In this document: positions 13,001 to 43,261 of the stretch, piece by piece
Layout: each line of letters begins with the position of its first letter
Position numbering within the stretch: the stretch's first letter is position 1
DNA from: Pigmentiphaga humi
GTDB taxonomy: Bacteria > Pseudomonadota > Gammaproteobacteria > Burkholderiales > Burkholderiaceae_B
DNA length: 64,000 nucleotides
Reading direction: 5' to 3'
Assembly (NCBI RefSeq): GCF_900606115.1
Contig: NZ_UWPJ01000023.1
Span: forward strand, 1-64,000
The notes under the pieces: model-generated
What the model saw: only the letters and a program-made list of their open reading frames with translations
Told to the model about the DNA's origin: nothing
The model's database searches: none
Position numbers and translations under genes: made by a program

Positions 13001-13071
13001 CAGCGGCCCTCCTGGCAATGGCGGAGAAACGCACGGGCGGGTGCGGCGGGAAAGCGAAAGTCTGTCATGGC

Positions 13072-14040: not shown

Positions 14041-14153
14041 GGGTGAGCAGGGGGAATGAGGCGGGAAACGACGACGATTTACCGCATTCTAGCGTCAACG
14101 TCCCGGTTTTACGCGGCAGGCCGCGCCGCGGCTGCGCCGCGGGCGGCGCGCGT

Positions 14154-14951
14154 TCAAAGATTCAGCAAGCGTTCGCGTTCGTCCGCGGACTGGGTGAAGC
14201 CTTCGTGCTGGTAGAAATCGAAGATCGCATTGACGACGGCGTCGGGGTCGTCGAGCAGTCGCACCAGGTCGGGGTCGGCCGGCGAGATCAGCCCGTGGGC
14301 CAGCGGCTGGGCGCGGATCCACTCGAGCAGGCCGCTCCAGTAGTCCGAGCCGACCAGGATGATGGGCATGCGCCGGCTCTTGTTGGTCTGCACCAGCGTC
14401 AGCGCCTCGAACAGTTCGTCCAAGGTGCCGAAGCCGCCGGGCAGCACCACGTAGGCCAGCGCGAACTTCACGAAAGCCACTTTGCGCGGGAAGAAGTGGC
14501 GAAAGAACAGGCTGATGTTCTGGTAGGCGTTGCTGGTCTGCTCGTGCGGCAGCTCGATGTTCAGCCCGACGCTGGGGCTGGGGCCGTCGTAGGCGCCTTT
14601 GTTGGCGGCCTCCATGATGCCGGGGCCGCCGCCGGAAATGACCGAAAAGCCCGCCTCCGAAAGTTTGCGCGCGATGGTTTCGGCCAGTTCGTAGCGAGGA
14701 TCCGTTTCCGGTATCCGGGCGCTGCCGAAGATGCTGACGGCCGGCCGGATCTGGGCCAGCCGCTCGGAAGCCTCGAAGAACTCTGACATAATCCCCAGGA
14801 CATGCCATGACTCGCGCGCCTTGGCGGCGGTGGCGAGCTCGGCGTTCACCACGTCCCGCAGGCCGGGTACGCGGCCGGTCTTGCGCGTCAGCGCATCGGT
14901 TGCGCTGTGCGGCTCTTCTCTGCCTATTTCGATTTCTCTGTGTTTGATCAT
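14154..14951 (-). CDS. LOG-family (TIGR00730) Rossmann-fold protein, nucleotide-5'-monophosphate phosphoribohydrolase type
   Basis: 265 residues from ATG 14951; a TTG two codons upstream is also in frame. The family motifs are both present: GGGPGIMEAANKGA (Arg/Lys-free nucleotide loop with Glu) and PGGFGTLDELFEAL. Proteins of this type, including plant and bacterial LOG enzymes, release cytokinin-like bases from their 5'-monophosphates; many bacterial members are of uncertain role and were once called lysine decarboxylases. The ~85-residue N-terminal part (RESWHVLGIMSEFFEASERL) appears shared with Burkholderiales relatives, supporting the long start. That start overlaps the divergent polA start. 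Confidence 0.85.
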   Translation of the reverse strand: MIKHREIEIGREEPHSATDALTRKTGRVPGLRDVVNAELATAAKARESWHVLGIMSEFFEASERLAQIRPAVSIFGSARIPETDPRYELAETIARKLSEAGFSVISGGGPGIMEAANKGAYDGPSPSVGLNIELPHEQTSNAYQNISLFFRHFFPRKVAFVKFALAYVVLPGGFGTLDELFEALTLVQTNKSRRMPIILVGSDYWSGLLEWIRAQPLAHGLISPADPDLVRLLDDPDAVVNAIFDFYQHEGFTQSADERERLLNL

Positions 14952-14957: not shown

Positions 14958-17670
14958 GACGTTGCTGTTGGTCGACGGTTCCAGCTATCTCTATCGCGCC
15001 TATCACGCGCTGCCCGACCTGCGCAATGCGCAAGGGGAACCGACCGGTGCGCTGTACGGCGTGCTGAACATGCTGCGGCGCGCATTGAACGATCATAAGG
15101 CAGACTACCTGGCTTGCATCTTCGATGCGCCCGGCAAGACTTTCCGCGACGACCTCTACCCCGAATACAAGGCGACCCGCGCCAGCATGCCCGAAGACCT
15201 GTCGCGCCAGGTCGGTCCCATCCTGGAGGCCATCCGCGCCCAGGGCTGGCCGGTGTTCGCCATCGAGGGCATCGAGGCCGACGACGTGATCGGCACGCTG
15301 ACTGCGCGCGCGGCCGCCGAAGGCGTGCGCAGCATCGTGTCCACCGGCGACAAGGACATGGCGCAACTGGTCAACGACCACGTCACGCTGGTCAACACCA
15401 TGACCTCGGAAACGCTGGACGCCGCCGGCGTGCAGCAGAAATTCGGCGTGCCGCCAGAGGGCATCATCGACTACCTGATGCTGATCGGCGACACCGTGGA
15501 CAACGTGCCCGGCGTCGAGAAAGTCGGCCCCAAGACCGCTGCCAAATGGCTCAACCAGTACGGCTCGCTGCAAGCGCTCGTGGCCCAGGCCGAGGCGGTC
15601 AAGGGCGTGGCCGGCGCCAACCTGCGCAATGCGATCCCGAACTTTCCCCTCACGCGCGAACTGATCACCATACGCACCGATTGCGACCTGGCTGCGCACA
15701 TCTCCGGCCTGGAAGCCCTGACCATGCGGCCGGTGGAGCGCGAGAAGCTCGAGGCCATGTACGAGCGCTACGGTTTCCGCAGCTGGCTGCGCGAACTGAC
15801 CGGCGACGAGGGCCGCATTCCCGAAGGCGATTCGCGGGTGCAGGCCGACGCCCCGCCGGCGCCGGAGAACGTGCAATACGACATGGTCGCAGACTGGGAA
15901 ACCTTCGAGCGCTGGCTGCAGGCGGTGCAGGCCGCGCCGCTGGTGGCGCTGGACACCGAAACCGATTCGCTCTCCGAAATGCAGGCCCGGCTGGTCGGCC
16001 TGTCGCTGGCGGTGGAGCCGGGGCGCGCCTGCTACATCCCGCTGGCGCACCGCCATCCCGACGCCGTCGGGCAGCTGCCCAAGGACGAAGTCCTGGCGCG
16101 CCTGAAGCCCTGGCTCGAGAACGCCGACGCGCCCAAGCTGCTGCACAACGCCAAATACGACACCCACGTGCTGGCCAACGCCGGGATCGCTCTGCGCGGC
16201 ACGGCGCACGACACCATGCTGCAGGCCTACGTATTGGAATCGCATCGCGGCGTATCCCTGGACGAGCTGGCGCAGCGCTGGCTGGGCCGCAAGGGCCTGT
16301 CGTTCGAGGACGTCTGCGGCAAAGGCGTGAAACAGATCTGCTTCGACGAGGTCGCGCTCGACGTCGCGACCCAGTACGCCAGCGAAGACGTGGACTACAC
16401 CCTGCAACTGCACGCCGTGCTGTATCCGCGCATCGAGGCCGACGCCGGGCTGGCGCGCATCTACGCCATCGAAATGCCGGTTTCGCGCGTACTGGTGGCG
16501 GTCGAGCGCAATGGCGTGCGCATCGATCCGGAGGAGCTCGGGCGCCAGAGCCATGCCATCGGCCAGGAACTGCTGGTGCTCGAACAGCGCGCCTACGAAC
16601 TGGCCGGCCAGCCGTTCAACCTGAACTCGCCCAAGCAACTGGGCGAAATCCTGTTCGGCAAGCTGCAACTGCCCGTGGTCAAGAAGACCGCGAGCGGCGC
16701 GCCTTCCACCGACGAAGACGTGCTGACCAAGCTGGCCGAGGACTACCCGCTGCCGCAGGCCCTGCTCAGCTACCGGGGCCTGGCCAAGCTCAAGTCCACC
16801 TACACCGACAAACTGCCCAAGATGATCAATCCGGGCACCGGCCGCGTGCACACGCGCTACGCCCAGGCCGCGGTCGTGACGGGACGGCTGGCTTCCAGCG
16901 ATCCCAACCTGCAGAACATCCCGGTGCGCACCCCCGAAGGCCGGCGCGTGCGCGAAGCCTTCGTGGCCGACACCGGCAACCTGATCGTCTCGGCCGACTA
17001 TTCCCAGATCGAATTGCGCATCATGGCGCACATCTCCGGCGACGAAAACCTGCTGTCCGCCTTCGCGCGCGGCGAAGACATCCACCGCGCCACCGCCGCG
17101 GAAATCTTCGGTGTGACTCCCGACGAAGTCAACGGCGAACAGCGCCGCTACGCCAAGGTCATCAACTTCGGCCTGATCTACGGCATGAGCGCCTTCGGCC
17201 TGGCCAGCAACCTGGGCATCACGCGCGACGCGGCCAAGCACTACATCGACCGCTACTTCGCGCGCTACCCCGGCGTGGCCCGCTACATGGACGACACCCG
17301 CGAACAGGCCCGCGAACGCGGCTACGTCGAAACCGTCTTCGGCCGCCGCCTGTGGCTGCCCGAAATCCGCGGCGGCAGCGGCCCGCGCCGCCAGGCCGCC
17401 GAACGCGCGGCCATCAACGCTCCCATGCAGGGCACCGCCGCCGACCTCATCAAAATGGCCATGGTGCAGGTCCAGGACTGGCTCGAAGCCGACAAGCTCG
17501 GCGCGCGCCTGGTCATGCAGGTGCACGACGAACTGGTACTGGAAGTCCCGCGCGAAGAAAGCGAGATCGTCGCCACGCGGCTGCCCGCGCTGATGTGCGG
17601 CGTGGCGGAATTGAAGGTGCCGCTGGTGGCCGAAGTCGGGTCGGGATATACCTGGGAACAGGCGCATTGA
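14950..17670 (+). CDS. polA: DNA polymerase I
   Basis: 906 residues. Three domains are in order. The 5'-3' flap nuclease (1-290) has LVDGSSYLYRAYHAL, IEADDVIGTL and GDTVDNVPGV. The 3'-5' exonuclease (~310-500) keeps the proofreading LDTETDS motif near residue 335. The family A polymerase has motif A DYSQIELR (~683), motif B RRYAKVINFGLIYG (~732) and motif C QVHDELVLEV (~857). It acts in Okazaki-fragment maturation and excision repair. Full length and intact; the start MIKTLLLVDGSS is the family start. A dispersed repeat begins a few bases after its stop. Confidence 0.98.
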   Translation: MIKTLLLVDGSSYLYRAYHALPDLRNAQGEPTGALYGVLNMLRRALNDHKADYLACIFDAPGKTFRDDLYPEYKATRASMPEDLSRQVGPILEAIRAQGWPVFAIEGIEADDVIGTLTARAAAEGVRSIVSTGDKDMAQLVNDHVTLVNTMTSETLDAAGVQQKFGVPPEGIIDYLMLIGDTVDNVPGVEKVGPKTAAKWLNQYGSLQALVAQAEAVKGVAGANLRNAIPNFPLTRELITIRTDCDLAAHISGLEALTMRPVEREKLEAMYERYGFRSWLRELTGDEGRIPEGDSRVQADAPPAPENVQYDMVADWETFERWLQAVQAAPLVALDTETDSLSEMQARLVGLSLAVEPGRACYIPLAHRHPDAVGQLPKDEVLARLKPWLENADAPKLLHNAKYDTHVLANAGIALRGTAHDTMLQAYVLESHRGVSLDELAQRWLGRKGLSFEDVCGKGVKQICFDEVALDVATQYASEDVDYTLQLHAVLYPRIEADAGLARIYAIEMPVSRVLVAVERNGVRIDPEELGRQSHAIGQELLVLEQRAYELAGQPFNLNSPKQLGEILFGKLQLPVVKKTASGAPSTDEDVLTKLAEDYPLPQALLSYRGLAKLKSTYTDKLPKMINPGTGRVHTRYAQAAVVTGRLASSDPNLQNIPVRTPEGRRVREAFVADTGNLIVSADYSQIELRIMAHISGDENLLSAFARGEDIHRATAAEIFGVTPDEVNGEQRRYAKVINFGLIYGMSAFGLASNLGITRDAAKHYIDRYFARYPGVARYMDDTREQARERGYVETVFGRRLWLPEIRGGSGPRRQAAERAAINAPMQGTAADLIKMAMVQVQDWLEADKLGARLVMQVHDELVLEVPREESEIVATRLPALMCGVAELKVPLVAEVGSGYTWEQAH

Positions 17671-31691: not shown

Positions 31692-32720
31692 CTAGCGGCC
31701 TGGCTGGCTTTGCTGGACGATTCCTACATCGTTCCAGGCATCTCTCGCATTCCGGTGCAGCGTTTGCAGGGCGAGATCGACCAGGACATCGTCGCTGTCC
31801 TCGCGCCATACGGCCTTGACCGCCCCCAGGCCTGCTTCCATGGATACCGGGAGCACGCGCATGGGGGTCACGAAGCGGTATTTTCGGGTGAGCGTGAGCG
31901 GCAGCATGGCTAGGAACGGGTAGATGGTGAGAAGTTCAAGGTTCATCGTCCAGGTCTGCGATTCGACGCAGCCAGGCGGCACGGTCAGGCCGTGCTGAGC
32001 CAGGTCGCGCTCCAGGTATTCGCGGTTCGGCGAACCTGCTTCTGGAAGTATCCACGGTAGCCCTTCCAAGTCTGCCCAGCCCACGTCGGATTTTGCCGCG
32101 AGCGGATGGTGGGCGCTGCAGACGACCACCATCGGGTCTTGGAAAATGGTCTGCTGGCGAAAGCTCGAAATCAGGCGATGGGTCGTATAGCGGGCCACGA
32201 CGAGATCGATCGTCGAGTCGGCAAGCATGGGCGCGAGATAGGAGAAAGTTCCTTCCTTGAGCGAGAGTGTGACGTTGGGGGTTTGTCGCTTGAGCGTGAA
32301 GGCGAGCGCCGGAAAGATCAGCGCCGATAGCGAATAGCCTGCGCCGATGCCGATGCGGCCGGCCTGGCCGGTGCACATAGCCTCGACTTCGACGCGCGTT
32401 CGATCGAGTTGGTCCAGGAGTTCGCGGCCGCGCCTGGCAAGCAGGTGCCCCAGTTCCGTCAGCACGACGCCGTTACCTGAGCGTTGCAGGATGGGATGCT
32501 TCAACGCATCTTCCATTTCGCTGATCTGCTTCGATACGGCTGCTGGCGTGACGTTCATCTCTTCGGCCACGAGCTTCAACTGGCCTGCGCTCGCGATCGC
32601 GACGAGCACGCGCACCTGCGAGAGCCGGAGCCGTCTGGAGAAAAAGCGCTCGATCAGCAAGGCTTCGGAGCGCGGCCCCTGCTTCGGCATTACCTTTTTG
32701 TTAACTGATCTGGAATTCAT
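31692..32720 (-). CDS. LysR-type transcriptional regulator
   Basis: 342 residues from ATG 32720; starts at 32753 (353 aa) and 32690 (332 aa) are also possible and none has a strong ribosome site. Helix-turn-helix: LSQVRVLVAIASAGQLKLVAEEMNVTPAAVSKQISEMEDAL. A periplasmic-binding-like effector domain follows (GRIGIGAGYSLSALIFPALAF…). It is divergent from the Rieske oxygenase gene, the classical LysR arrangement, and probably activates the catabolic genes in response to their substrate. Base composition is less GC-rich than in the flanking core. Confidence 0.88.
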   Translation of the reverse strand: MNSRSVNKKVMPKQGPRSEALLIERFFSRRLRLSQVRVLVAIASAGQLKLVAEEMNVTPAAVSKQISEMEDALKHPILQRSGNGVVLTELGHLLARRGRELLDQLDRTRVEVEAMCTGQAGRIGIGAGYSLSALIFPALAFTLKRQTPNVTLSLKEGTFSYLAPMLADSTIDLVVARYTTHRLISSFRQQTIFQDPMVVVCSAHHPLAAKSDVGWADLEGLPWILPEAGSPNREYLERDLAQHGLTVPPGCVESQTWTMNLELLTIYPFLAMLPLTLTRKYRFVTPMRVLPVSMEAGLGAVKAVWREDSDDVLVDLALQTLHRNARDAWNDVGIVQQSQPGR

Positions 32721-32737
32721 TTCAAACCACTCTGAAA
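32720..32737. promoter_or_regulatory. Candidate LysR operator
   Basis: Interrupted dyad TTTCA (32720-32724), eight bases, TGAAA (32733-32737), between the divergent regulator and oxygenase. It resembles LysR boxes of the T-N11-A class. It would lie inside the regulator if the longest start were used, favouring a shorter start. Role inferred. Confidence 0.4.
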
Positions 32738-32788
32738 ACGGGCTCGTTAACATGGTCTTGTCTAAGCAGAAAGATCATTGTTCGAGAG

Positions 32789-33859
32789 ATGCCATATTTA
32801 AAAAATTGCTGGTACGCAGCTATGTGGGCGGAGTCGCTGAAGCCGGACTTGCTGGTCCCGCTCATGATTCTGGAGCAGCCGCTGTTGTTCTATCGGGACC
32901 AGTACGGAGTTGCGGCCGCGCTTGACGATATGTGTCCCCATCGTCTTGCGCCCTTGAGTCTGGGCAGACTTTTGCCGAATGGCAACCTCCAGTGCGGGTA
33001 TCACGGCCTTGAGTTCGATTCGTCGGGACAATGCGTCCGGAATCCGCACGGCAGCGGACGAATTCCTCGGGCATGCGCGGTGCATCGCTACACCTTGGTG
33101 GAGAGGCATCGGTTGCTCTGGATCTGGCCGGGCGACGAGACGCCGGATCCGGGGGCGATACCCGACTTCTCCTTTCTCGATGAAGACTCCGGCTATGACG
33201 TCGGGCCGCGCGACACCATTCGCATGGATTCGAACTACCGAAACATCATCGACAACTTGATGGACCTGAGCCATGCGTCGTTCCTCCATCCAGACCTGCT
33301 GGGCAACGAGGAAACGATTCAGGCCCGCATCGATATCAAACAGGAAGGGAACAGCGTCCAGGTGCGCCGCGACATGAACGATGTCCGGCCCCCTTTGTTG
33401 CGGGACCTGCTCTTCAAACAGGACGGCGCGCGCGTGAATATGTGGAACAGCATTCGCTGGGACGCACCGTCCGCGTTGCTGAACGACGTCGGAACTTACG
33501 CGCCAGAGGCGGATCCGGCCCAGTTCGCCGGCCAGCTGGGGTGCCACATTCTCACTCCGCAGACGGCCGATACGACCCTCTACTTTACTGCGGCCGCCAA
33601 GCAGGGGCCGCTTGCCTCCAGATCCGCAGACGGCGAGGTCGATTTCAAGGCGCGCATCGCCGAGTTGCGGCGCACTGCATTCAAGGACCAGGATGATCCC
33701 ATGATCCGGGCGCAACAGATCAACATCCGCCTGCATCCCGGTGTCAGGCCTGTGTTGTTCGAGATTGACGCGGCGCCTGTTCGTTGCCAGCGGATTCTCA
33801 ATGCCTTGATCGAGGAGGAACAAAAGCGGGTTAGCTCCCGGATCTCGGAAGAGCCTTGA
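32789..33859 (+). CDS. Rieske non-heme iron oxygenase, VanA-like
   Basis: 356 residues. The N-terminal Rieske [2Fe-2S] site has Cys-x-His (DDMCPHRLAPLS) and Cys-x-x-His (LQCGYHGLEF). The mononuclear iron site is NIIDNLMDLSHASFLHPDLLG, with bridging Asp and two His. The start MPYLKNCWYAAMWAESL is typical of the vanillate demethylase/dicamba demethylase group, which O-demethylate or hydroxylate aromatic acids. No ferredoxin reductase (VanB-like) gene is nearby, so electrons must come from elsewhere. The gene begins a likely operon with the Bug protein and flavin monooxygenase. Confidence 0.88.
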   Translation: MPYLKNCWYAAMWAESLKPDLLVPLMILEQPLLFYRDQYGVAAALDDMCPHRLAPLSLGRLLPNGNLQCGYHGLEFDSSGQCVRNPHGSGRIPRACAVHRYTLVERHRLLWIWPGDETPDPGAIPDFSFLDEDSGYDVGPRDTIRMDSNYRNIIDNLMDLSHASFLHPDLLGNEETIQARIDIKQEGNSVQVRRDMNDVRPPLLRDLLFKQDGARVNMWNSIRWDAPSALLNDVGTYAPEADPAQFAGQLGCHILTPQTADTTLYFTAAAKQGPLASRSADGEVDFKARIAELRRTAFKDQDDPMIRAQQINIRLHPGVRPVLFEIDAAPVRCQRILNALIEEEQKRVSSRISEEP

Positions 33860-33901
33860 ACGGCGGTGCGTTTGTAATAGAAATCAAAATGGAGACAGGT
33901 G

Positions 33902-34909
33902 ATGAAGAATAAAGAGAATATGGCGTTCGCGGGTTCGTCGCGGCGCACATGGTTGAAGATCTCCGCGGCGTCGGCCTTGGCCGCGGCTTGTGGGCCGATG
34001 CCGGTCCTGGCGCAATCGAACTATCCCGAGCGGCCTGTGCGGATCGTCGTGCCGTCCTCGCCGGGCGGCAGCTTGGACGCCGTCGCGCGCATTATCGGGC
34101 AGCAACTCGCCGAATACTGGAAAACGAGCGTCTATATCGAGAACAAGGCCGGGGCCAACCTTATCATTGGGACCTCGTATGCCGCGAAAGCTCCGGCCGA
34201 CGGGTATACCTTGCTGTTCGCGCATGATGGCGCCATGGCAATCAATCCAGTGATTTACCGGAAATTGCAGTACGGACAGAACGACTTTCTCCCCGTGGCG
34301 CAGGTCGCTGTTCTGCCGATGGTGCTGTATGTGAATTCGGAGTATCCGGCGCGCAACTTCGATCAATTGATGAGGGCCTTGCGCGCACAGCCCGGCAAGC
34401 TTTCCCTGGCCGTGGGAGGCACTAGTTCGCAGTTGACCTCGGAGTTGTTCAAGTCGCTTGCCAAGGTCGACTACGAGAACATTTCATATAAGGGCGCAGG
34501 CCCCGGCCTTGTCGCACTCGCTGCAGGCGAGGTGCAGTTGTCCTTCGCGGACACCGGAAGCGCGGCGTCGATGATGCAGACGGGAAAAATTCGGCCGATC
34601 GCTGTAGCGGCTCCCGAACGGGTCAAGCAGATGCCCGATGTTCCCTTGATATCGGAAATCGTCCCCGGCTATTCGGTGACCTCGTGGAGCGGCTTGTTCG
34701 CGCCGGCAGGAACGCCGCCGGCTGTGGTCGAGAAAATCGCGGCCGATGTGCGCGCGGTCATGGCCGCGGGGGAGGCGCGCAGCCGTCTGGAGACGCTGGG
34801 CGTCATCCCCGCGACGAGCACGCCACAGAAGTTCGGCGAGCTCATCGCTGCCGATACCGCTAATTGGAGAGAACTGGTCAAGGCCCGCAACCTGTACCAA
34901 AACGAATAA
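33902..34909 (+). CDS. Bug-family (tripartite tricarboxylate transporter) solute-binding protein
   Basis: 335 residues from ATG 33902 with GGAGA seven bases before it; a GTG one codon earlier is an alternative. It has a Tat-like signal (SSRRTWLKISAASALAAACG…LAQ). The Bug fold is seen in YPERPVRIVVPSSPGGSLDAVAR, IIGQQLAEYW, VYIENKAGANLIIGTSYAAKAPADGYTLL and APAGTPPAVVEKI. Such periplasmic receptors bind aromatic or carboxylic acids. No TctA/TctB membrane genes adjoin it, as for most Bordetella Bug proteins. The context suggests the ligand is the substrate of the oxygenases. Confidence 0.88.
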   Translation: MKNKENMAFAGSSRRTWLKISAASALAAACGPMPVLAQSNYPERPVRIVVPSSPGGSLDAVARIIGQQLAEYWKTSVYIENKAGANLIIGTSYAAKAPADGYTLLFAHDGAMAINPVIYRKLQYGQNDFLPVAQVAVLPMVLYVNSEYPARNFDQLMRALRAQPGKLSLAVGGTSSQLTSELFKSLAKVDYENISYKGAGPGLVALAAGEVQLSFADTGSAASMMQTGKIRPIAVAAPERVKQMPDVPLISEIVPGYSVTSWSGLFAPAGTPPAVVEKIAADVRAVMAAGEARSRLETLGVIPATSTPQKFGELIAADTANWRELVKARNLYQNE

Positions 34910-34965
34910 CGCCGCGTGGGTCTCTCTTCGTTGTTCATATGCAGTTCAATCATCGAGGTTCAGAA

Positions 34966-36189
34966 ATGAGGGTTGCGATCGTAGGGGGCGGCATCGGAGG
35001 GTTGACGGCCGCGCTGTACCTGCACCGCATGGGTATCCATGTGCGTGTCTTTGAAGCGGCACCGCTGTTCAAGGCGCTCGGCGTCGGAATCAATCTGATG
35101 CCGCACGCCATTCGCCGGCTGTCAGAGCTGGGCTTGGCTTCCGAACTGAAGGCGCGCGGGGTCGAACCGCTAGAGTTTGCCTTTTTTACACGGCATGGCC
35201 AGGCCATTTACTCGGAGCCGTGCGGGCGGCATGCCGGCCACTCGTGGCCGCACTTCTCCATCCATCGCGGCGCGCTCCATGAAGTCTTGTTCGACGCCGC
35301 GAGGTCGCGTCTCGGCGAGGAGAACGTGGTTACGGACCGGCGTCTCGCGCATTTCGAGCAGAATCCGCAATCGGTCGCGCTGCACTTCGTCAGCGCGGAC
35401 GGCGCGACCTTCGTTGAGCATGCGGATGCCGTCATCGCTTGCGATGGCATCCATTCCCAGATTCGCAAACAGCTGTTTCCGTCGGAGGGAGCGCCGGCTT
35501 TCGACGGCATCCACATGTGGCGCGGAGTGACTTACGGCGAGCCGTTCCTGACGGGCGCCACCGTGGCGCGCTGCGGTTCGCTCGCACATGGAAAACTCAC
35601 GGTCTATCCCATCCAGCAACTGCCGGATGGTCGGCAGCTCATCAACTGGGTGGCGGAAGTACGCAAAGGCGCGCTCACGCATACCGACTGGAGTCGGCCA
35701 GGGCGGCTGGAGGATTTCATCGACTACTACGCTGACCGGCGCTTCGACTGGCTTGATATCCCCGAGATGATGCGGCGCGCGGAGATGATTCTCGAATATC
35801 CCATGGTCGACCGCGACCCTTTGCCGCGCTGGACCTTCGGAAGGGTGACGCTGCTCGGGGATGCGGCGCATCCCATGTACCCGCGCGGAGGGAATGGCGC
35901 GGCCCAGGCTATCGTGGATGCGGAAGCGGTGGCGCTTTGCCTCGCGAAGGAGGCAGGGGTCGAGCAGGCTTTGCAGCGCTACGAGAACGAGCGGCGCATG
36001 GTCACGACACGTATCGTTCTGACCAATCGCAGCGAACCTCCCGACCACATTATCGAGCGAGTGGAGCAGCTCACCGGAGGCCGTACTTTTTCAGCGATCG
36101 ATGATGTTGTCTCGCAAAGCGAGCTCGCCGAGATTTCCCACAAATATCAGCGTGTGACCGGCATGGACCTGGACAGCACAAGCGTCTAG
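34966..36189 (+). CDS. FAD-dependent aromatic monooxygenase, PhzS/salicylate-hydroxylase-like
   Basis: 407 residues from ATG 34966 (GAGG seven bases upstream); another in-frame ATG at 34939 lacks a good site. Class A flavoprotein: the Rossmann fingerprint VAIVGGGIGGLTAALYLHRMG is at the N terminus, DAVIACDGIHSQIRKQLF mid-protein, and the second FAD motif is GDAAHPMYPRGGNGAAQAIVDAEA. The last motif with Met-Tyr-Pro is closest to PhzS-like hydroxylases. It should use NAD(P)H and oxygen to hydroxylate an aromatic ring. It is the third gene of the cassette, 56 bases after the Bug gene. Confidence 0.87.
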   Translation: MRVAIVGGGIGGLTAALYLHRMGIHVRVFEAAPLFKALGVGINLMPHAIRRLSELGLASELKARGVEPLEFAFFTRHGQAIYSEPCGRHAGHSWPHFSIHRGALHEVLFDAARSRLGEENVVTDRRLAHFEQNPQSVALHFVSADGATFVEHADAVIACDGIHSQIRKQLFPSEGAPAFDGIHMWRGVTYGEPFLTGATVARCGSLAHGKLTVYPIQQLPDGRQLINWVAEVRKGALTHTDWSRPGRLEDFIDYYADRRFDWLDIPEMMRRAEMILEYPMVDRDPLPRWTFGRVTLLGDAAHPMYPRGGNGAAQAIVDAEAVALCLAKEAGVEQALQRYENERRMVTTRIVLTNRSEPPDHIIERVEQLTGGRTFSAIDDVVSQSELAEISHKYQRVTGMDLDSTSV

Positions 36190-36212
36190 GGCGCTGTCCC
36201 CAACTAGCCTGT

Positions 36213-36235
36213 AAGATATATAAAGAATATATCTT
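36213..36235. promoter_or_regulatory. Perfect AT-rich palindrome, possible NsrR-type operator
   Basis: AAGATATAT (36213-36221), AAAGA, ATATATCTT (36227-36235). The 23-base length and AAGAT…ATCTT ends resemble the NsrR nitric-oxide-response consensus of beta/gammaproteobacteria, though the inner bases differ. It lies 36 bases before the start of a two-gene membrane-protein operon. A trailing T-run is short, so it could also act as a weak terminator of the monooxygenase operon. Role inferred. Confidence 0.5.
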
Positions 36236-36271
36236 TTTGGGGCTCGGCTTGGATAAGTCGAGGAAGTACGC

Positions 36272-36712
36272 ATGAACTACGGCCTCCTGCTCGTCCTCCA
36301 CCTGCTGGCGGCCATCGCCTTCGTCGGCACGGTGTTCTTCGAGGTGATCATGCTCGAGGGCGTGCGCCGGCATTTGCCGCACGAAACCATGCGCGCCGTG
36401 GAGCGCGCCATCGGCAACCGCACCACCGCCGTGATGCCGTGGGTGCTGCTCGCGCTCTATGGCGCGGGAATCGGGCTGGCCTGGCAGCATCGGGGGGCGC
36501 TGGCACAGCCGCTGGCCAGCAGTTTCGGGCTGTTGCTGGCGCTCAAGATCGCACTGGCGCTGAGCGTGTTCGGCCATTTCCTGACCGCCATGCGGTGGCG
36601 CCGGCGCGGCGTGCTCGGCGGGCGGCGGTCGCACCGCCTTCACTTGAGCGTGTTCTGCCATGTGCTGGCCATCGTCGTGTTGGCCAAGGCCATGTTCTAC
36701 CTGTCGTGGTAG
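36272..36712 (+). CDS. Small four-helix membrane protein, CopD-like
   Basis: 146 residues, four hydrophobic helices with His residues near helix ends (LLVLHLLAAIAFVGTVFFEV; VFGHFLTAMRW; HLSVFCHVLAIVVLAKAMFYLSW). The layout resembles the CopD/DUF2269-type membrane proteins, some of which are proposed to bind haem or copper. The start MNYGLLLVLHL is the only sensible one. It is followed after four bases by a second small membrane protein, so the two are probably one operon. Function uncertain. Confidence 0.65.
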   Translation: MNYGLLLVLHLLAAIAFVGTVFFEVIMLEGVRRHLPHETMRAVERAIGNRTTAVMPWVLLALYGAGIGLAWQHRGALAQPLASSFGLLLALKIALALSVFGHFLTAMRWRRRGVLGGRRSHRLHLSVFCHVLAIVVLAKAMFYLSW

Positions 36713-36716
36713 CGCG

Positions 36717-37124
36717 ATGGCGCTGGCCGATTTCTATGCCGCGATCAAGGCGAGCCACGTCGGATTCGTGTTGCTCAGCGGGAGCCTGTTCGCCGCGCGC
36801 GGCTTAGGCGTGCTGCTGGGCAGCGCCAAGCCCATGGCTTTGCCGGTGCGCCGGTTCAGCCAGGTGGTGGACACGGCCCTGCTGGTGAGCGCCTTGCTGT
36901 TGGCGGCGGCTTTGCAACTGGCTCCCTTTGCCCAGACGTGGCTGCAGGTCAAGCTCGTGCTGCTGGCAGCCTACGTCGGGTTCGGCACGTGGGCGCTGCG
37001 GCGGGCGTCGACGCGCAGGGGCAGGGCCATTGCGTTCGCCATGGCTTTGCTGTGTTTCGCCTGCATGCTGGCCATCGCCCGTACGCACGATCCCTTGGGG
37101 TTTCTGCGCATCCTGGGTTTCTGA
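36717..37124 (+). CDS. SirB2-like membrane protein
   Basis: 135 residues from ATG 36717. SirB family pattern: YAAIKASHVGFVLLSGSLFAARGLGVL, then RRFSQVVDTALLVSALLLAAAL, LQVKLVLLAAYVGFGTWALRRA and a last helix. SirB proteins are four-helix membrane proteins of unclear function; the name comes from an invasion-gene regulator locus in Salmonella. It is coupled with the CopD-like gene, and both may answer to the palindrome upstream. Confidence 0.75.
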   Translation: MALADFYAAIKASHVGFVLLSGSLFAARGLGVLLGSAKPMALPVRRFSQVVDTALLVSALLLAAALQLAPFAQTWLQVKLVLLAAYVGFGTWALRRASTRRGRAIAFAMALLCFACMLAIARTHDPLGFLRILGF

Positions 37125-37255
37125 CAGCCCCGCGCGGCCGCACGGCGTCGCTTTCCGCGCAGGGACGCTACACTCGGACGCCATGCGGCGGCCTGCGGCC
37201 TCCGATTCTGCGACAACCGTCGAACCGAACATCGAACCATTAGGGAGCCACCTCC

Positions 37256-38257
37256 ATGAACCGCGACTTTCCTTCCCTGACGCGCCGCAGCCTGCTGGCC
37301 GCCGCATCGGCCGCCGGCGTGGCGGCCTTGACGGCCGTGCCGGCGCAGGCCCAAGGCCGCAAGGCCGTGACCCGCATCATCGTGCCCTTCGCCCCCGGCG
37401 GCGGCAACGACGTGTTCGCGCGCCAACTGGCGCATGGCCTGAACGAGATGTTCAAGAAGGACGTGATCGTCGAGAACAAGCCGGGCGCGGGCGGCAACGT
37501 GGGCACGGAGCAGGTGGTGCGCGCCGCGGCCGACAGCAATATTTTCCTGCTGGGCCACACCGGCACCATCGCCATCAACCCCTCGCTCTACAAGAACCTG
37601 AAGTTCAACGCTTCCACCGACCTGCAGCCGGTGGCCATGTTCGCCTCGTCGGCGCTGCTGCTGGTGGTGCCGGCCTCGTCGCCGATCCAGAACGTGGCGC
37701 AATTGGTCGAGGTCTTGCAGCGCAAGGATTCCGACCTGAGCTATGCCTCCAGCGGTTCGGGCACCGGCGGCCACCTGACCGGCGAGATGTTCCTGCATGC
37801 GCTGGGCGCGCGCGCCGTCCACGCCCCCTACAAGGGCACCGCGCCGGCGCTGGCGGACGTCGCGGGCGGACAGGTGCAGTTCAGCTTCAGCGTGATCCCG
37901 GCGGCGATGGCGCTGGTCAAGGCGGGCAAGCTGCGCGCGCTGGCGGTCACCAGCGCCAAGCGCATGGCGCAGCTGCCCGACGTGCCCTCGGTGGCCGAAT
38001 CCGGCGTTCCGGCGCTGGCCGGTTTCGAGAGCACGCTGACCTACGGCATTCTGGCGCCCAAGGGCGTGCCGCAGGCGGTGGTGTCGCAGCTGGGCGCCGA
38101 GATACTGAAGGCCGCTTCGACGCCGGAGTTCCAGTCCAAGCTGGGGATCGAAGGCGCCGAGCCGCTGCTGGGCGATGCCGCCGCGTACGCGCGCAAGATA
38201 CAGCAGGAGAGCGGCAAGTGGAGCGAGGTGATCCGGGCATCGGGCGCTTCGGCCTGA
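37256..38257 (+). CDS. Bug-family solute-binding protein
   Basis: 333 residues. Twin-arginine-type signal (LTRRSLLAAASAAGVAALTAVPAQA), then Bug motifs VTRIIVPFAPGGGNDVFARQLAHGL, VIVENKPGAGGNVGTEQVV, and late LAPKGVPQAVVSQLGAEI. It is a periplasmic receptor for a carboxylate or similar small molecule, probably delivering to a tripartite tricarboxylate transporter encoded elsewhere. It stands alone: promoter region to the left, convergent LicD gene to the right. GC content is that of the core genome, unlike the Bug gene at 33.9 kb. Confidence 0.9.
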   Translation: MNRDFPSLTRRSLLAAASAAGVAALTAVPAQAQGRKAVTRIIVPFAPGGGNDVFARQLAHGLNEMFKKDVIVENKPGAGGNVGTEQVVRAAADSNIFLLGHTGTIAINPSLYKNLKFNASTDLQPVAMFASSALLLVVPASSPIQNVAQLVEVLQRKDSDLSYASSGSGTGGHLTGEMFLHALGARAVHAPYKGTAPALADVAGGQVQFSFSVIPAAMALVKAGKLRALAVTSAKRMAQLPDVPSVAESGVPALAGFESTLTYGILAPKGVPQAVVSQLGAEILKAASTPEFQSKLGIEGAEPLLGDAAAYARKIQQESGKWSEVIRASGASA

Positions 38258-38284: not shown

Positions 38285-39169
38285 TCAGGAGGCGGTGTCG
38301 GCGGGAGGCCGGAAGCGCGTCACGATGTGCCTCGGCACCCGCAGGGCGGGAGGCGGCAGCTCGCGGTAGTCGCCATAGAGGCGCGTGAGCACGGCGTCGT
38401 AGGCGGCCGGCGCCGGGAATGCATGGCCTTCGAAAAGCAGCGGGCGCGTGGGCAGGAATTCTTCCAGCGGACGCGCCAGCCTGCGGGCGCGGCGCCATTG
38501 CAGCGGCAGCGATACCAGGCAGGCGACGTGGCTGGGCGGCGCCGCTCCCCAGGTGCCCAGCCAGGCGTCGTACAGGCGGCCGCGGGCGCCGGCGGGCGTC
38601 AGCCGCGCCAGCAGGTAGCCGGCGCGGGCGCCCACGCGTCGCCAGCGCGGGTGGCCTGGGCCGATCCGGCCTTGCGCGGGGTCGTTGGCGACGCGATGGC
38701 CCAGCCGCAGCAGCCAGGCTCCCCACAGGTGCAGGTGGCCGAGCCAGCCCGCGCCCCGCACCGCGTCGAACGGAAAAATGTCGATGTGGATGCCGTGGTG
38801 CATGGGCAGGTGGGCGACCCCGATCTGCCGGAATTCGCTGCCGTGGCGGCGCAGCGTGGCAATGCGCTTGCGGAAGGCCGGATCGCTGCCGCGGTGCTGC
38901 AGGAAGCAGCGCGCATCCAGCAGGGCAGGCGCCTCGCGCAGCAGGCGCTCGAAATCGGGGCGCGGCAGGGCGACGTCGATGTCGCAATCCCATGGGATGA
39001 AGCCCTGGTGGCGCACCGCGCCCAGCAGCGTGCCGGCGGCGATCTGGTAGCGCAGGCCCAGCGCCCCGCATACGCGGGCCAGTTCTCGCAGCAGTTCTTT
39101 TTGCACGGCATGGAGCGCTTCGATCTCGGACGGGGAGAGCGTCATGGCGCGCAATGGCGGCGGATTCAT
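38285..39169 (-). CDS. LicD-family phosphotransferase
   Basis: 294 residues (ATG 39169; ATG 39145 is an alternative). The diagnostic LicD block is GLRYQIAAGTLLGAVRHQGFIPWDCDIDVALPRPDFERL, with the metal-binding DCDID, followed by HHGIHIDIFPFDAV. LicD enzymes move phosphocholine or related groups from a CDP carrier to glycan acceptors. It is the last gene of a three-gene unit, two bases after the preceding stop. Together with a nucleotidyltransferase-kinase fusion upstream it suggests a complete activation-and-transfer route. Acceptor and group are unknown. Confidence 0.85.
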   Translation of the reverse strand: MNPPPLRAMTLSPSEIEALHAVQKELLRELARVCGALGLRYQIAAGTLLGAVRHQGFIPWDCDIDVALPRPDFERLLREAPALLDARCFLQHRGSDPAFRKRIATLRRHGSEFRQIGVAHLPMHHGIHIDIFPFDAVRGAGWLGHLHLWGAWLLRLGHRVANDPAQGRIGPGHPRWRRVGARAGYLLARLTPAGARGRLYDAWLGTWGAAPPSHVACLVSLPLQWRRARRLARPLEEFLPTRPLLFEGHAFPAPAAYDAVLTRLYGDYRELPPPALRVPRHIVTRFRPPADTAS

Positions 39170-39171
39170 GG

Positions 39172-40194
39172 CTACGCCGCCCGGGACGAGGGCAGCGCCA
39201 GGCGCAGCGTGCCCAGGCCGGGCGCCAGCGCCGCCAGCCGGTGGTCGACCGCGACGTCGGCGCACGCCGGATGTGTCCCGGCACCGCTGTCCAGGCATTC
39301 GAGCCATTGCCCGCCGCGCCAGGTCAGATAGCCCGATGCCACCCACGGCTGGACGATGGCGCTGCGGCAGCTGCCCAGGTGCACGGCCAGGCTTGCCCCA
39401 CGGATGTGGGTCAGTTGGATGCGCGGGCCGAATTTGTTGTACCGGCGGCGGAATTCCAGGCTCTCCATGGCGGCGCAGCGGCGCGCGGCCTGCCGAACGG
39501 CCGCCTGCCACGCCGGTCCGGAGGGCGGCTGGCCTTGGGCTGCGCCCGGGTGCACCAGGTTGCGGGCGGCGCTGGCCAGTTGCGGCGCCGTGGGTTCGGC
39601 GGCGCTCGCCTCGCGCCGGCGCAGTTCGGCCAGCACCGCTTGCGGGCCGCCCGCCGGCGCGGCCAGGTCTATGCATTGCAGCCGGACGCGGGGGCTGCTT
39701 TGTGCCGCCAGCAGGGCGCGAAGCTGGGCGATGTAGCGGTCCTGATCGCGGAGCTCGAGCTGGTTGACCCATCCCAGCACGCCATGCAGATAGGTGAAAT
39801 GCAGCTCGACCCCGGGCGGGTGCAGGGCCGCCAGCCTTGCCGCGTAATGGCGCAGGTAGTCGATCCAGAAGAGCTCGGCCCAGTCCATGTCGGGCGCGCC
39901 GGCCAGGCGCCAGCTCTTGTAGCCTCCGAACGGCAGCGTGAATACCAGCGGCTGACCGTCGGCACAGGCGGCGGCCAGTTTGCGCCGCAGATCGTCCACG
40001 GTGGCCGAGCAGGCCGCGCTGCGCCGCCAGGGGCGGGCCAGCACCGCCTGCAGCAAGGCCTCCGCCGGCGCGCCGAGGGCGGGCGGAGCAGGGTCGTCCG
40101 GCGCGCCGGACAGCCGCTGCAGCGTGGCGGCCAGCGCCTGGCGCTGGACCGGGTCCAGCGCGGGCGTGTCGGCGATCCGGACCGGCCCGTTCAC
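39172..40194 (-). CDS. Unrecognised protein between nucleotidyltransferase-kinase and LicD genes
   Basis: 340 residues, GTG start overlapping the upstream stop (GTGA). No signal peptide or membrane helix. The central part LVFTLPFGGYKSWRLAGAPDMDWAELFWIDYLRHYAARLAALHPPGVELHF followed by YIAQLRALL faintly recalls the DIT1/PvcA isocyanide-synthase fold (FP-x-KS, PD-x-AE, PPG order), but this is weak and by eye. The C-terminal part has RRRYNKFGPRIQLTHIRGASLAVHLGS. Strict coupling with its neighbours implies a step in the same pathway. I assign no function. Confidence 0.7.
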   Translation of the reverse strand: MNGPVRIADTPALDPVQRQALAATLQRLSGAPDDPAPPALGAPAEALLQAVLARPWRRSAACSATVDDLRRKLAAACADGQPLVFTLPFGGYKSWRLAGAPDMDWAELFWIDYLRHYAARLAALHPPGVELHFTYLHGVLGWVNQLELRDQDRYIAQLRALLAAQSSPRVRLQCIDLAAPAGGPQAVLAELRRREASAAEPTAPQLASAARNLVHPGAAQGQPPSGPAWQAAVRQAARRCAAMESLEFRRRYNKFGPRIQLTHIRGASLAVHLGSCRSAIVQPWVASGYLTWRGGQWLECLDSGAGTHPACADVAVDHRLAALAPGLGTLRLALPSSRAA

Positions 40195-42221
40195 GGCAAG
40201 GCCCCGGCATGTTCGAGCGGACTTTCCTGCCAGTACCGGATGTCCCGTCCGACCGTGGCCAGATGGCTGTCATGGGCGGTCTCCTCGGCCTGCCAGGCGG
40301 GCAGCCGGCCGACTGCCCGGGCCATGTTCTCCAGGGTCGCGGCCAGCGCCGGCCACTGCAGGCCGAAATCCGGGTCGAGTTCGCGCAGCAGGCCTGGCAG
40401 GGCCTCGAAGTACGGCGCGGGATCGTCGTAGCGGAAGCGCACGGCGTAGCCGGCCGGATTCAGGAAACGGTAGGCGAGCTTGCGCCCGCCGAAGCGCAGG
40501 TAGCGCACCAGCAGCGCGCGGGCGGCCCGTGCCGGATCGGCAGGCTGCATGCCGGCCGCCTCCGGACCGCGCAGCCAGTCCAGCCAGTGCGGCGCCCGGC
40601 CGGACCGGCCGCGCGCAGGCGCGCGCGCGGCGGCCAATTGGGAGGCGAAGTCGGCGCTGCCGGCATGGCCCAACAGGCTGATCCAGTCATCTTCCGGCGC
40701 CGTGGCGTGGCAGGTGGAGGTGAAGTCGTAGTCCAGCATGGGCACCGTGGCCGCGGCGCCAGTATCGAGCCAGCGTTCGGCCAGCCCCAGCCTGAGGGCC
40801 GCGGGCTGGCCTGCCACCGGAGCCAGTTCGGGAATGCCGACCAGGATGTTCTTGGGCGTGGCGTCGCGGAACGGCAGCACCGCGTCGAATGCGCCCCAGA
40901 TCCGCGCCAGCGCCCCCAGTTCGTCCAGGACGGTGCCGGGCAGCGGCGGCAGTTGCAGCAGATGCGACAGCACGTGCAGCAGTTCCCGCACGTGGGTATC
41001 GAGCGGATAGGCGGGCAGGCCCGCCGCGCCCGGCCATTGGCCCAGCGCCTGCTGGATGCGCCGCAGCCGGCCGCGTGCGCGGTCCAGCAGCGTGAGCGCG
41101 GCCTGGCCGGCATGCCGGCCTTCGATACGCCGCAGCAGCCGCAGCAGGTCGTACAGCCGGATGCCGCGCGCATGCTGCAGGACCAGTTGCCTGTCATGCA
41201 CGGCGTGCGGCACGGGGACCAGCGGTTCGCCCGGCTGCCGGCCCAGCCACCGCAGCACGTCGTATTCGTGGCGCGCCGCTTCGGCCGTCGCGCATTGTTT
41301 GAGGAAACGGCCGTCGCGGGCATGGTCGGGCTGGCTCAGCGTGCGCGCGTCCTTGTCGAGATTGCCGCGGAAATAGGCCAGCGGCGCCGCGCCCGCCAGG
41401 CTGGCCCGGGCTGCGTGCAGATCGTGCAGCGTATCCACGTCGGCCGCGCCGGCCGGCGATATCGGCAATGCCAGCAATTCCAATCCGTCCGGCTGATGCA
41501 AAGCCGCGCGCAGCACTTGCCATTGCGCATGCCTGCCCGCACTGGCGTGCCGCTGCACGAGCGGCCACAGGCGCGCCGGCCAGCGCACGGCGGGCGCCAT
41601 CATCAGCGTCGCCGCGGAGCCGCCGGCAGGCGGAGTGGAGTCGCCGGGCGAGGGGGGCGGCTCCAGGTCGAGCACCCTGGGCCAGGGGCCGCCGTGGCCG
41701 GGCGCGAGCCGCACGCCGACGGGGCGGTCCGCATCGGGCCGCATGGGCGAAGCGGCCAGCGCCGCCACGTGGTCGGGCACCTCGGCCAGGCGAGCGAGCA
41801 CGGCGGGGTCGTAGACGGTGTCGGCAAACAGCACCCAGGCGTCGCCGCCGCGCAGGGCAGGCTGCGCCATGGCCACGGCCAGGCTCTGCAGGACGCCGTT
41901 GGAGGCATAGCCGGGATTGTGGATGCACAGCGCAGCCGGCGCGTGGGCCGCGACCGCGGCCTGCACCGCGTCGGCCTGGTGGCCGGTCACGACGCAGATC
42001 CGGCCGTTGAACGGCAGCTCTCGCAGTTGCCGCAGCAGGCGCGGCAGCGTGCCCAGCCCCAGTTGCAGCGGCGCCAGCGCCTTGTGCCGCGGGCCGCCGA
42101 AGCGGCGCCCCAGACCCGCGGCCAGCACGATGAAGTGAGTGGCGATGCGTCCGGGGCCGGGGGCGTGGCGCGCCTGGGGCGAGCTTCGCGGCTGCCCGCT
42201 GCGGGAGGCGTCGGGGGACAC
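40191..42221 (-). CDS. Bifunctional nucleotidyltransferase / APH-type kinase, LicC-LicA-like fusion
   Basis: 676 residues; GTG start 42221 with GAAGGAAG upstream. Domain 1 (~27-275) is a sugar/choline-phosphate nucleotidyltransferase: FIVLAAGLGRRFGGPRHKALAPL, LFADTVYD and the late ADVDTLHDLHAA. Domain 2 (~290-676) is an aminoglycoside/choline-kinase fold: GRFLKQCATAEAARHEYDVLRWL (Lys and Glu), HARGIRLYDLL hinge, PFRDATPKNIL (catalytic Asp and Asn, with Phe in place of the usual His) and MLDYDFT (metal Asp). One protein could thus phosphorylate an alcohol and attach CMP or another nucleotide. LicC and LicA are separate proteins in Haemophilus. Confidence 0.82.
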   Translation of the reverse strand: MSPDASRSGQPRSSPQARHAPGPGRIATHFIVLAAGLGRRFGGPRHKALAPLQLGLGTLPRLLRQLRELPFNGRICVVTGHQADAVQAAVAAHAPAALCIHNPGYASNGVLQSLAVAMAQPALRGGDAWVLFADTVYDPAVLARLAEVPDHVAALAASPMRPDADRPVGVRLAPGHGGPWPRVLDLEPPPSPGDSTPPAGGSAATLMMAPAVRWPARLWPLVQRHASAGRHAQWQVLRAALHQPDGLELLALPISPAGAADVDTLHDLHAARASLAGAAPLAYFRGNLDKDARTLSQPDHARDGRFLKQCATAEAARHEYDVLRWLGRQPGEPLVPVPHAVHDRQLVLQHARGIRLYDLLRLLRRIEGRHAGQAALTLLDRARGRLRRIQQALGQWPGAAGLPAYPLDTHVRELLHVLSHLLQLPPLPGTVLDELGALARIWGAFDAVLPFRDATPKNILVGIPELAPVAGQPAALRLGLAERWLDTGAAATVPMLDYDFTSTCHATAPEDDWISLLGHAGSADFASQLAAARAPARGRSGRAPHWLDWLRGPEAAGMQPADPARAARALLVRYLRFGGRKLAYRFLNPAGYAVRFRYDDPAPYFEALPGLLRELDPDFGLQWPALAATLENMARAVGRLPAWQAEETAHDSHLATVGRDIRYWQESPLEHAGALP

Positions 42222-42376
42222 GGATACTTCCTTCTGTGGAGAGAGGCGTCCCGCGCGGCGGACGCTCCGGTAATGGATCGAATGTAACCAAGTATACGGT
42301 CGAGCCCGGGCCCGGGCGCCTTTCCCAGGGCAGGCGTCGATTACACTGCCCGCCGAATCGCAAGGGCTGTACGCCG

Positions 42377-43261
42377 ATGGACATAGAAATCAACGAAGAG
42401 CTGCGGGCCTATATCGACCCGCTGACCGAAGACGAATACGCGGCGCTGGAGCACAGCCTGCTGGCCGAGGGCTGCCGCGATGCGCTGGTGCTGTGGGGCG
42501 CGGTGCTGGTGGACGGGCACAACCGCTACGGCATCTGCAAAAAGCACGGCATTGCGTTCCGCACGGTGCAGAACACCGTCTTCCAGTCGATGGACGACGT
42601 GCGGCTGTGGATGATAGACAACCACCTGGGACGCCGCAGCATCTCGGATTTCCAGCGCGGGGTGCTGGCGCTGCGCAAAAAGGAAATCCTGGAGGCCAGG
42701 GTGAAGCAGGCTGGCGGAAACGCCGCGCCGGCGGCCGTCGCGGATGCCGTTCCGGCTGTCCGGGAAGCCGCCGGCCAGGAGCCGGCCGGCAAGCCGGCGT
42801 TTGCCACGCGCCAGGCCGTGGCGCGGGCGGCCCGCCTGAGCGCGTCGACGGTCGGGCAGATCGAGCGCATCCAGAAAACCGCCGCACCGGAATTAGTGGC
42901 GGCGGTGAAGTCCGGCGCCATTTCCATCAGCGCGGCGGCGGCCGTGGCTTCGCTGCCCGCCGAGCGGCAATCGCAGGCGGTGGCCGGCGGCAAGGAAGAA
43001 CTGCGCCGCGCAGCCCGCCAGGTGCGCGAGAGCAAGGCGCGGCCCAGGCCTGCGCCGGCCGGCGATGCCGCGCCGGAGCAGGCGGATCTGCCGCCCGAGA
43101 GCACGGACGTGGACGAACTGACCCATACCGTGCGCGCGCTGCGGCAAGAAAACGCGGAACTGAAGCGCCGCGTCGCCCACCTGACCATCGCGCTCAAGGA
43201 AGCGCGCGCCGGCAGGGAGGGCGGCCCGGCTCCTGCGGCGGATCAGGCCAGCGCGGGGTAG
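42377..43261 (+). CDS. Orphan ParB/Spo0J-like DNA-binding protein
   Basis: 294 residues from ATG 42377. The N-terminal ParB-like domain has LTEDEYAALEHSLLAEGCRDALVLWGAVLVDGHNRYGICKKHGI (the DGHNRY nucleotide-binding box) and MIDNHLGRRSISDFQRGVLAL. A KorB/ParB-type helix-turn-helix region follows (TRQAVARAARLSASTVGQIERI), and a C-terminal coiled coil (VDELTHTVRALRQENAELKRRVAHL). No parA adjoins it, so it is not the chromosomal parAB locus. It ends overlapping the OYE gene tail to tail by 19 bases. Similar proteins are labelled plasmid replication/partition-related; true role unknown. Confidence 0.78.
   Translation: MDIEINEELRAYIDPLTEDEYAALEHSLLAEGCRDALVLWGAVLVDGHNRYGICKKHGIAFRTVQNTVFQSMDDVRLWMIDNHLGRRSISDFQRGVLALRKKEILEARVKQAGGNAAPAAVADAVPAVREAAGQEPAGKPAFATRQAVARAARLSASTVGQIERIQKTAAPELVAAVKSGAISISAAAAVASLPAERQSQAVAGGKEELRRAARQVRESKARPRPAPAGDAAPEQADLPPESTDVDELTHTVRALRQENAELKRRVAHLTIALKEARAGREGGPAPAADQASAG

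Follow-up and report, generated by a model that had tools for sequence, protein, structure and literature searches.

A rare three-gene unit of Pigmentiphaga humi with an isonitrile-synthase-like member appears to build, activate and attach a phosphate-linked group

Within a 64,000-nucleotide stretch of DNA from Pigmentiphaga humi (assembly GCF_900606115.1, contig NZ_UWPJ01000023.1, positions 1 to 64,000 of the forward strand; hereafter the window), we analysed a compact unit of three genes, numbered 1 to 3 in the direction of reading (Table 1). As judged from sequence profiles and a predicted structure, the product of gene 2 is a divergent branch of the isonitrile-synthase (DIT1_PvcA) superfamily. 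It is the protein that the original prediction, made from the DNA letters, had called a novel member, and it is fused to gene 1 in one species. Gene 1 has a nucleotidyltransferase (NTase) half, gene 3 belongs to the LicD family, and the three genes are linked in four genomes. With gene 2 placed there, the unit is much further from the ordinary than a simple phosphocholine operon would be: this rare assembly appears to build and activate a small phosphate-linked group and to attach it to the cell surface, and the combination suggests a new kind of surface decoration.

An AlphaFold model of gene 2, built from four sequences (predicted local distance difference test, pLDDT, 74; predicted template-modelling score 0.78), was compared with the PDB by Foldseek. 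The first 8 of 538 matches were all isonitrile synthases, namely PvcA (3e59) and PIsnA (9dh4, 9dhm), with expect values (E) of 4.3e-8 to 1.5e-5, a probability of 1.00 and template-modelling (TM) scores of 0.47-0.58, and the first match of another kind was a tyrosyl-tRNA synthetase at E 4e-3. A four-member sequence profile, in which no fold was used, gave PIsnA/PvcA as the top three of ten PDB sequences (E 0.002-0.0044), followed by a DNA methylase at E 0.088. Alignment of the four clade members with three proteins of Pfam family PF05141 by hhalign, as a pair without controls, gave E 5.4e-4 and a probability of 30%; after addition of an alphaproteobacterial protein (L063) to one side and of a further PF05141 protein (L064) to the other, these values became 5.7e-8 and 94.7%, a gain that leans on the L063 protein, since the latter matches PF05141 in its own right. 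In negative controls, the five-member gene 2 profile gave E 0.44, 0.021 and 0.29 against alignments of LicD, aminoglycoside phosphotransferase (APH) and NTase proteins, respectively.

The L063 protein was found by the four-member gene 2 profile at E 5.4e-21 (an E for a single genome) and passes PF05141 at 29.8 bits, the cut-off being 26.4, and in the same scan the L064 protein, an undoubted PF05141 member (E 2e-48), matched the gene 2 profile at E 4.4e-4. The L063 protein thus bridges the gene 2 clade and PF05141, and from this together with the fold and profile results above we place gene 2 in the isonitrile-synthase superfamily. In a tree of nine gene 2 and PvcA proteins the two groups are separate, and the L063 protein sits on a long branch of unsure placement.

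When the four clade members were compared with four PF05141 proteins, the residues that gene 2 was seen to keep included K93 (the Lys of the PAFPAKS-type motif), E107, Y154, N212, P283 and W284. The sequence signal shared with PF05141 sits in the N-terminal half; the C-terminal part has motifs of its own, and blocks that are invariant across the four genomes comprise FGGYK, (W/L)AE, SAARN, RR-x-x-NK, IQL-x-H-x-RG, H-x-GSCR and QPWV. Gene 2 itself matches nothing in Pfam or NCBIfam up to E 1 and nothing in PHROGs or PADLOC up to E 0.01. The label that we adopt is isonitrile-synthase-like, not isonitrile synthase.

The surroundings of the L063 protein constitute an observation in their own right. 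It lies in an alphaproteobacterial run (L063:5973-10640) of a methyltransferase, an esterase, a split transketolase pair, the gene 2 relative and a RidA-type gene, in which the gene 2 relative overlaps the second transketolase-pair gene by 4 bases and the RidA-type gene by another 4. Neither an NTase-kinase nor a LicD gene is seen beside it, so that its setting differs from that of the three-gene unit. These neighbours hint at ketose-phosphate and imine chemistry in the gene 2 branch, and the run is possibly a second new setting for the superfamily.

Turning to gene 1, its N-terminal half is likely, not certainly, a cytidylyltransferase, judging from profiles and the predicted fold. Its profile placed PntC (6pd1) first among PDB sequences at E 1.1e-5 and GlmU next at 0.0027, and LicC is not among the five PDB sequences that match up to E 0.01. 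The best fold matches of the gene 1 model are an inositol-1-phosphate cytidylyltransferase fused to DIPPS and then a free CTP:inositol-1-phosphate cytidylyltransferase; GlmU is matched as well, and MurU appears at rank 50. The NCBIfam matches of gene 1, namely GlmU (1.3e-6), the DVU_1551-type NTPtran family (1.9e-6) and molybdenum-cofactor cytidylyltransferase (5.6e-5), are all far below their cut-offs. Residues invariant in the alignment include L33-A-A-G-x-G-x-R-F, K47, D134 and D261/D263, which we take to be the usual NTase catalytic motifs.

For the C-terminal half of gene 1, kinase activity is probable though unproven, as its conserved motifs suggest. An invariant P-F-R-D453-A-T-P-K-N458 has an Asp-Asn spacing like that of the Brenner motif of LicA, the Brenner His being absent (F451), and an invariant V-P-M-L-D497-Y-D499-F agrees with the beginning of the choline-kinase motif, except that Leu replaces Ile and Asp replaces Glu; the LicA Brenner and choline-kinase motifs used for comparison are those of PMC4364537 (this and all papers below are cited for the parts consulted). 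Against the PDB, the kinase half gave one insignificant phosphotransferase match, to corramycin phosphotransferase (E 0.24). No kinase occurs among the 50 fold matches shown for the gene 1 model, whose pLDDT of 60 is too weak to judge a kinase fold.

Other identities for this half were considered and rejected. PF25792 (BREX_BrxC_helical) matched one of four kinase halves at E 3e-5, below its cut-off (24.7 vs 27 bits) and over a single stretch; the NCBIfam matches to XopZ (E 0.017) and RecN (E 0.2) were single and weak; and an AmgK-like identity found no support from hhalign with an alignment that includes an AmgK-like protein. Elsewhere in the genome, an adjacent APH/NTase pair looks like AmgK-MurU, and an APH-family gene at 13072-14040 (PF01636, 143.6 bits) is probably the homoserine kinase gene thrB, these names being our own assignments.

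Gene 3 matches the LicD family PF04991 at E 3e-31, in keeping with the LicD-like role that had been proposed for it, and the same family is recognised in the LicD proteins of two of the other loci described below (L036 and L037) and in the first LicD piece of the third (L035). W60, D61, D63 and D65 of gene 3 are invariant in the LicD alignment. The NCBIfam Mf1 model is matched in part, with 56.3 bits where the cut-off is 225. The gene 3 locus is the sole LicD locus found in this genome.

The arrangement of the unit, as three coupled minus-strand genes with a 4-base overlap between the first two and a gap of 2 bases between the second and third, was reproduced as originally predicted. Its G+C content is 73.9%, that of the window 67.7%, and a promoter and terminator scan found nothing. 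The LicD frame stays open upstream across the whole of gene 2 (38285-40273, 662 codons), probably as a by-product of the high G+C content; such frames can mislead gene callers. The unit itself is more than a chance reading, since its proteins are conserved at 34-52% identity in Rhodobacter-type and Thiocapsa genomes and recur, partly broken, in a third genome.

Table 1. Coordinates and assignments of the features discussed; window positions unless residues are given.
Feature	Position	Strand	Remarks
Gene 1	40191-42221	(-)	GTG start, 676 aa; NTase and putative kinase halves
NTase domain	gene 1 residues about 28-277		PF12804, E 1.7e-13; PntC/LicC-like
Putative kinase domain	gene 1 residues about 278-676		catalytic motifs only
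GTGA overlap (4 bases)	40191-40194	(-)	couples gene 1 stop with gene 2 start
Gene 2	39172-40194	(-)	GTG start, 340 aa; divergent DIT1_PvcA superfamily relative by profile and predicted fold
Gene 3	38285-39169	(-)	ATG start, 294 aa; LicD-family phospho-alcohol transferase
ParB/KorB-like gene (by eye)	42236-43261		edge of variable interval; no Pfam or PADLOC match

Three further loci carry the unit. A scan of 268 genomes for the gene 1 family gave matches in 153, and among the matches listed only this genome and one other (G489) match beyond the NTase region; the rest of those listed all lie within residues 5-184 and were set aside as probable GlmU or other NTases. In the second genome, a 20-kb stretch (L035) carries all three genes in unchanged order. 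A scan of genome contigs for gene 2 gave 38 pattern matches, two of which were confirmed, one in a metagenome-assembled genome (MAG) of Rhodobacter sp. (L036), where the three genes again stand in the same order, and one in Thiocapsa imhoffii DSM 21303 (L037), where genes 1 and 2 are fused in one 883-aa reading frame on which LicD converges from the opposite strand. All three components are present at all three loci, of which one was found through gene 1 and two through gene 2, so that the co-occurrence elsewhere that had been anticipated for a functional unit was indeed observed. Compared with the window proteins, those of gene 2 are 52, 39 and 39% identical, those of gene 1 45 and 34%, and the LicD proteins 46 and 37%.

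The unit is rare but recurrent across genomes. Gene 2 is matched in 2 of 61 relatives, one of them this genome itself and the other resembling a chance match, in one of 399 genomes of the order and one of 398 of the phylum (each count including this genome), in one of 146 genomes of the Thiocapsa family (Thiocapsa itself), and in 3 of 385 genomes in the class of the Rhodobacter MAG, the MAG counted. We set aside as chance the weak gene 2 match in G011, which spans 66 residues at E 9.9e-4 and contains a stop. A plasmid collection searched with genes 1 and 2 yielded no match, and in three viral-contig scans, with 28, 66 and 21 pattern matches, no relative was confirmed. Because the scans rely on short patterns or on a loose initial screen, distant members may have escaped them.

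As to genomic surroundings, the unit of L035 stands in a polysaccharide locus with glycosyltransferases, an ABC transporter, a UDP-GlcNAc 2-epimerase and a polysaccharide-biosynthesis epimerase. In the window, the ParB/KorB-like gene of Table 1 has counterparts at 59-83% identity in 8 of 10 sibling genomes from the same genus, or 9 of 11 when this genome is included, and stretches from five of these eight siblings were aligned with the window. The DNA to the right of 42.33 kb aligns in all five and the left flank up to 30.57 kb in three, and between these two points nothing aligns in the stretches of any of the five, so that the unit lies in a variable interval; no gene 2 match was found in any of the ten siblings. 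With so patchy a distribution, the unit may well have spread by horizontal transfer. Beside the unit, at 31692-38257, are a LysR-like gene (by eye), a VanA-type Rieske oxygenase, two TctC-type receptors, a flavin-dependent (FAD) monooxygenase and a SirB protein, none of which aligned in the sibling stretches, and which together look like an island for the degradation of aromatic compounds.

We propose, with about an even chance of being right, that the unit encodes a condensed pathway of surface decoration, similar to Lic, in which a group X is made, activated and attached as phospho-X. Gene 2 would make X, a small nitrogen-containing alcohol, within the cell, the probable starting materials being an amine or amino acid and a ketose phosphate; the putative kinase half of gene 1 would phosphorylate it; the NTase half would convert phospho-X to its cytidine diphosphate form, CDP-X, or to another nucleoside diphosphate (NDP) form; and LicD would then transfer phospho-X from CDP-X to a glycan of the cell surface. 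Consecutive steps in this order agree with the Thiocapsa fusion and with the linkage seen throughout, and the polysaccharide setting of L035 also speaks for the proposal. The original prediction had likewise seen activation and transfer condensed in one operon with a novel member, and of this view the NTase, LicD and recurrent linkage are borne out, with the kinase indicated by motifs; its suggestion that the cell itself may make the group is consistent with the results. X may carry an isonitrile, a formyl group or something else, two PvcA motifs being missing from gene 2. A bolder version holds that surface glycans bear an isonitrile- (or formyl-) phospho-alcohol, made and activated by one enzyme with three activities, as in the 883-aa Thiocapsa protein, and attached by LicD through a phosphodiester. 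We consider this version doubtful; if true, such a decoration would create a metal-binding, chemically reactive cell surface.

Several results weigh against the proposed pathway or the superfamily placement beneath it. Gene 2 does not reach the curated PF05141 cut-off, and one of the four clade members matches that family at E 0.11; a PF05141 search of the genomes of the other three loci was negative in all three, which shows little, as no control gave a signal. The gene 2 model, at pLDDT 74, superposes on PvcA/PIsnA with a root-mean-square deviation of 6.6-7.8 and a TM score of about 0.5, and its conserved stretches 91-98 and 263-286 fall below pLDDT 50. In the PF05141 proteins compared, the Asp-Gly of the SDG-type motif, (S/T)DG, and the His of TPWH are invariant; that Asp and that His are absent from all four clade members, and gene 2 may for this reason not perform isonitrile chemistry. 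Gene 1 had been predicted to fuse an NTP-transferase with an APH/choline-kinase-like domain, to be checked by profile searches of both halves; the NTase half matched PntC first, and the kinase half matched no kinase family in Pfam or NCBIfam and gave no hhalign signal against two APH proteins of the same genome (P 0.16). At L035, an IS66-type transposase gene (12788-14488) splits LicD, whose tail is seen by eye at 15284-15727, and gene 1 has a broken reading frame, unless the assembly is in error; the unit there therefore seems to be decaying. Lastly, no glycan genes were found beside the unit in the window (Pfam on ten neighbours) or recognised at L036 (open reading frames judged by eye), and a neighbour at L037 that by eye looks like a flippase has no Pfam match.

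Considering that the NTase half is nearest to PntC and that gene 3 is of the LicD family, an ordinary phosphocholine or phosphoethanolamine decoration is conceivable, in which gene 1 would be a LicC-LicA-like fusion with a common alcohol as its substrate, and gene 2 a minor modifier of the group or its acceptor (by N-formylation, for instance, as thought for Dit1) that makes no new alcohol. Consistent with this, the LicD protein Mf1, whose model gene 3 partly matches, takes both CDP-choline and CDP-ethanolamine (PMC11982090), and Dit1, a member of the same superfamily as isonitrile synthases, makes a yeast spore-wall precursor that is most likely formyl tyrosine and not an isonitrile (PMC7345447). 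However, no choline permease was noticed in the open reading frames around the unit in the window, L036 and L037, where no LicB family search was made, and a gene 2 that is fused to gene 1 in one species and always linked to it is suggestive of a central rather than an accessory part; we regard this reading as rather unlikely.

It is also improbable, in our estimation, that gene 1 is a sugar kinase joined to an NTase in the manner of AmgK-MurU, making an NDP-sugar while LicD and gene 2 serve another branch. The fold of the NTase does match GlmU and, further down, MurU, its best listed NCBIfam match is GlmU, far below cut-off, and the genome holds the AmgK-MurU-looking pair mentioned above; yet the best solved relative by profile is PntC, the kinase half shows no hhalign signal to the alignment holding the AmgK-like protein, and LicD enzymes use donors of the CDP-choline type (PMC10434233, PMC11982090). 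We attach only a slight probability to the idea that gene 2 keeps the isonitrile-synthase fold with catalysis lost and supports the gene 1 enzyme as its scaffold or regulator. The missing SDG-type and TPWH motifs, and a fusion that could serve scaffolding, would fit such a role, but the polar motifs of gene 2 that are invariant in four genomes look like an active site, and the L063 relative stands beside transketolase and RidA-type genes, with no kinase or LicD seen there.

Should the make-activate-attach pathway hold, it would extend a superfamily known mainly from secondary metabolites into cell-envelope biology, and Lic-type decorations shape the encounters of bacteria with hosts, phages and metals. 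The 883-aa protein and single transferase of Thiocapsa imhoffii DSM 21303 offer a small testable system. Among the matches listed from the openly licensed literature, no paper connected LicD with isonitriles or isocyanides, and the titles and abstract starts of the isonitrile/isocyanide synthase papers listed held no such surface pathway. Precedents for a surface role are the spore-wall product of Dit1 and rhabduscin, a product of isnAB reported at the bacterial surface (PMC6386379).

Among known systems, IsnA-type enzymes link the amino acid nitrogen, from L-Trp or L-Tyr, with a carbon that ribulose 5-phosphate supplies (PMC7949033), and a fungal isonitrile-synthase member makes a valine-derived isocyanide (PMC9381783). 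With PvcA/IsnA, gene 2 shares the predicted fold, the N-terminal-half signal, Lys93, Glu107, Tyr154, Asn212 and PW283-284, whereas it lacks the SDG Asp-Gly and the TPWH His and has its own C-terminal motifs; no PvcB/IsnB-type dioxygenase was recognised beside it, its partners being the NTase-kinase and LicD instead. Yeast Dit1, of the same superfamily, supplies a surface layer, the spore wall, but works with the P450 Dit2 and, in the sources consulted, without nucleotide activation or LicD. PntC activates a phosphonate with CTP, and NTases of this kind are often fused to the group-making enzyme Ppm (PMC6697681). Such systems share with the unit the closest solved NTase by profile, surface tailoring (proposed for the unit) and the fusion of an NTase to a group-making enzyme, whereas their group is a phosphonate made through Ppm, and no Ppm was recognised beside the unit. 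Fusions of LicC with LicA occur in Treponema, which a LicCA literature search did not bring up among the matches listed; like gene 1 they join NTase and kinase and, to our knowledge, have no third isonitrile-synthase-like domain. In the Lic-1 pathway proper, the kinase LicA and the cytidylyltransferase LicC make CDP-choline, LicB is the permease, and LicD moves phosphocholine to glycans (PMC10434233). The unit shares with this pathway a LicD transferase, a PntC/LicC-like NTase, a kinase-like partner and, as proposed, the logic of activation and transfer; it differs in that its kinase half goes unrecognised by profiles, that no LicB was noticed nearby, and that it adds an isonitrile-synthase-like protein, fused to its activating partner in one species.

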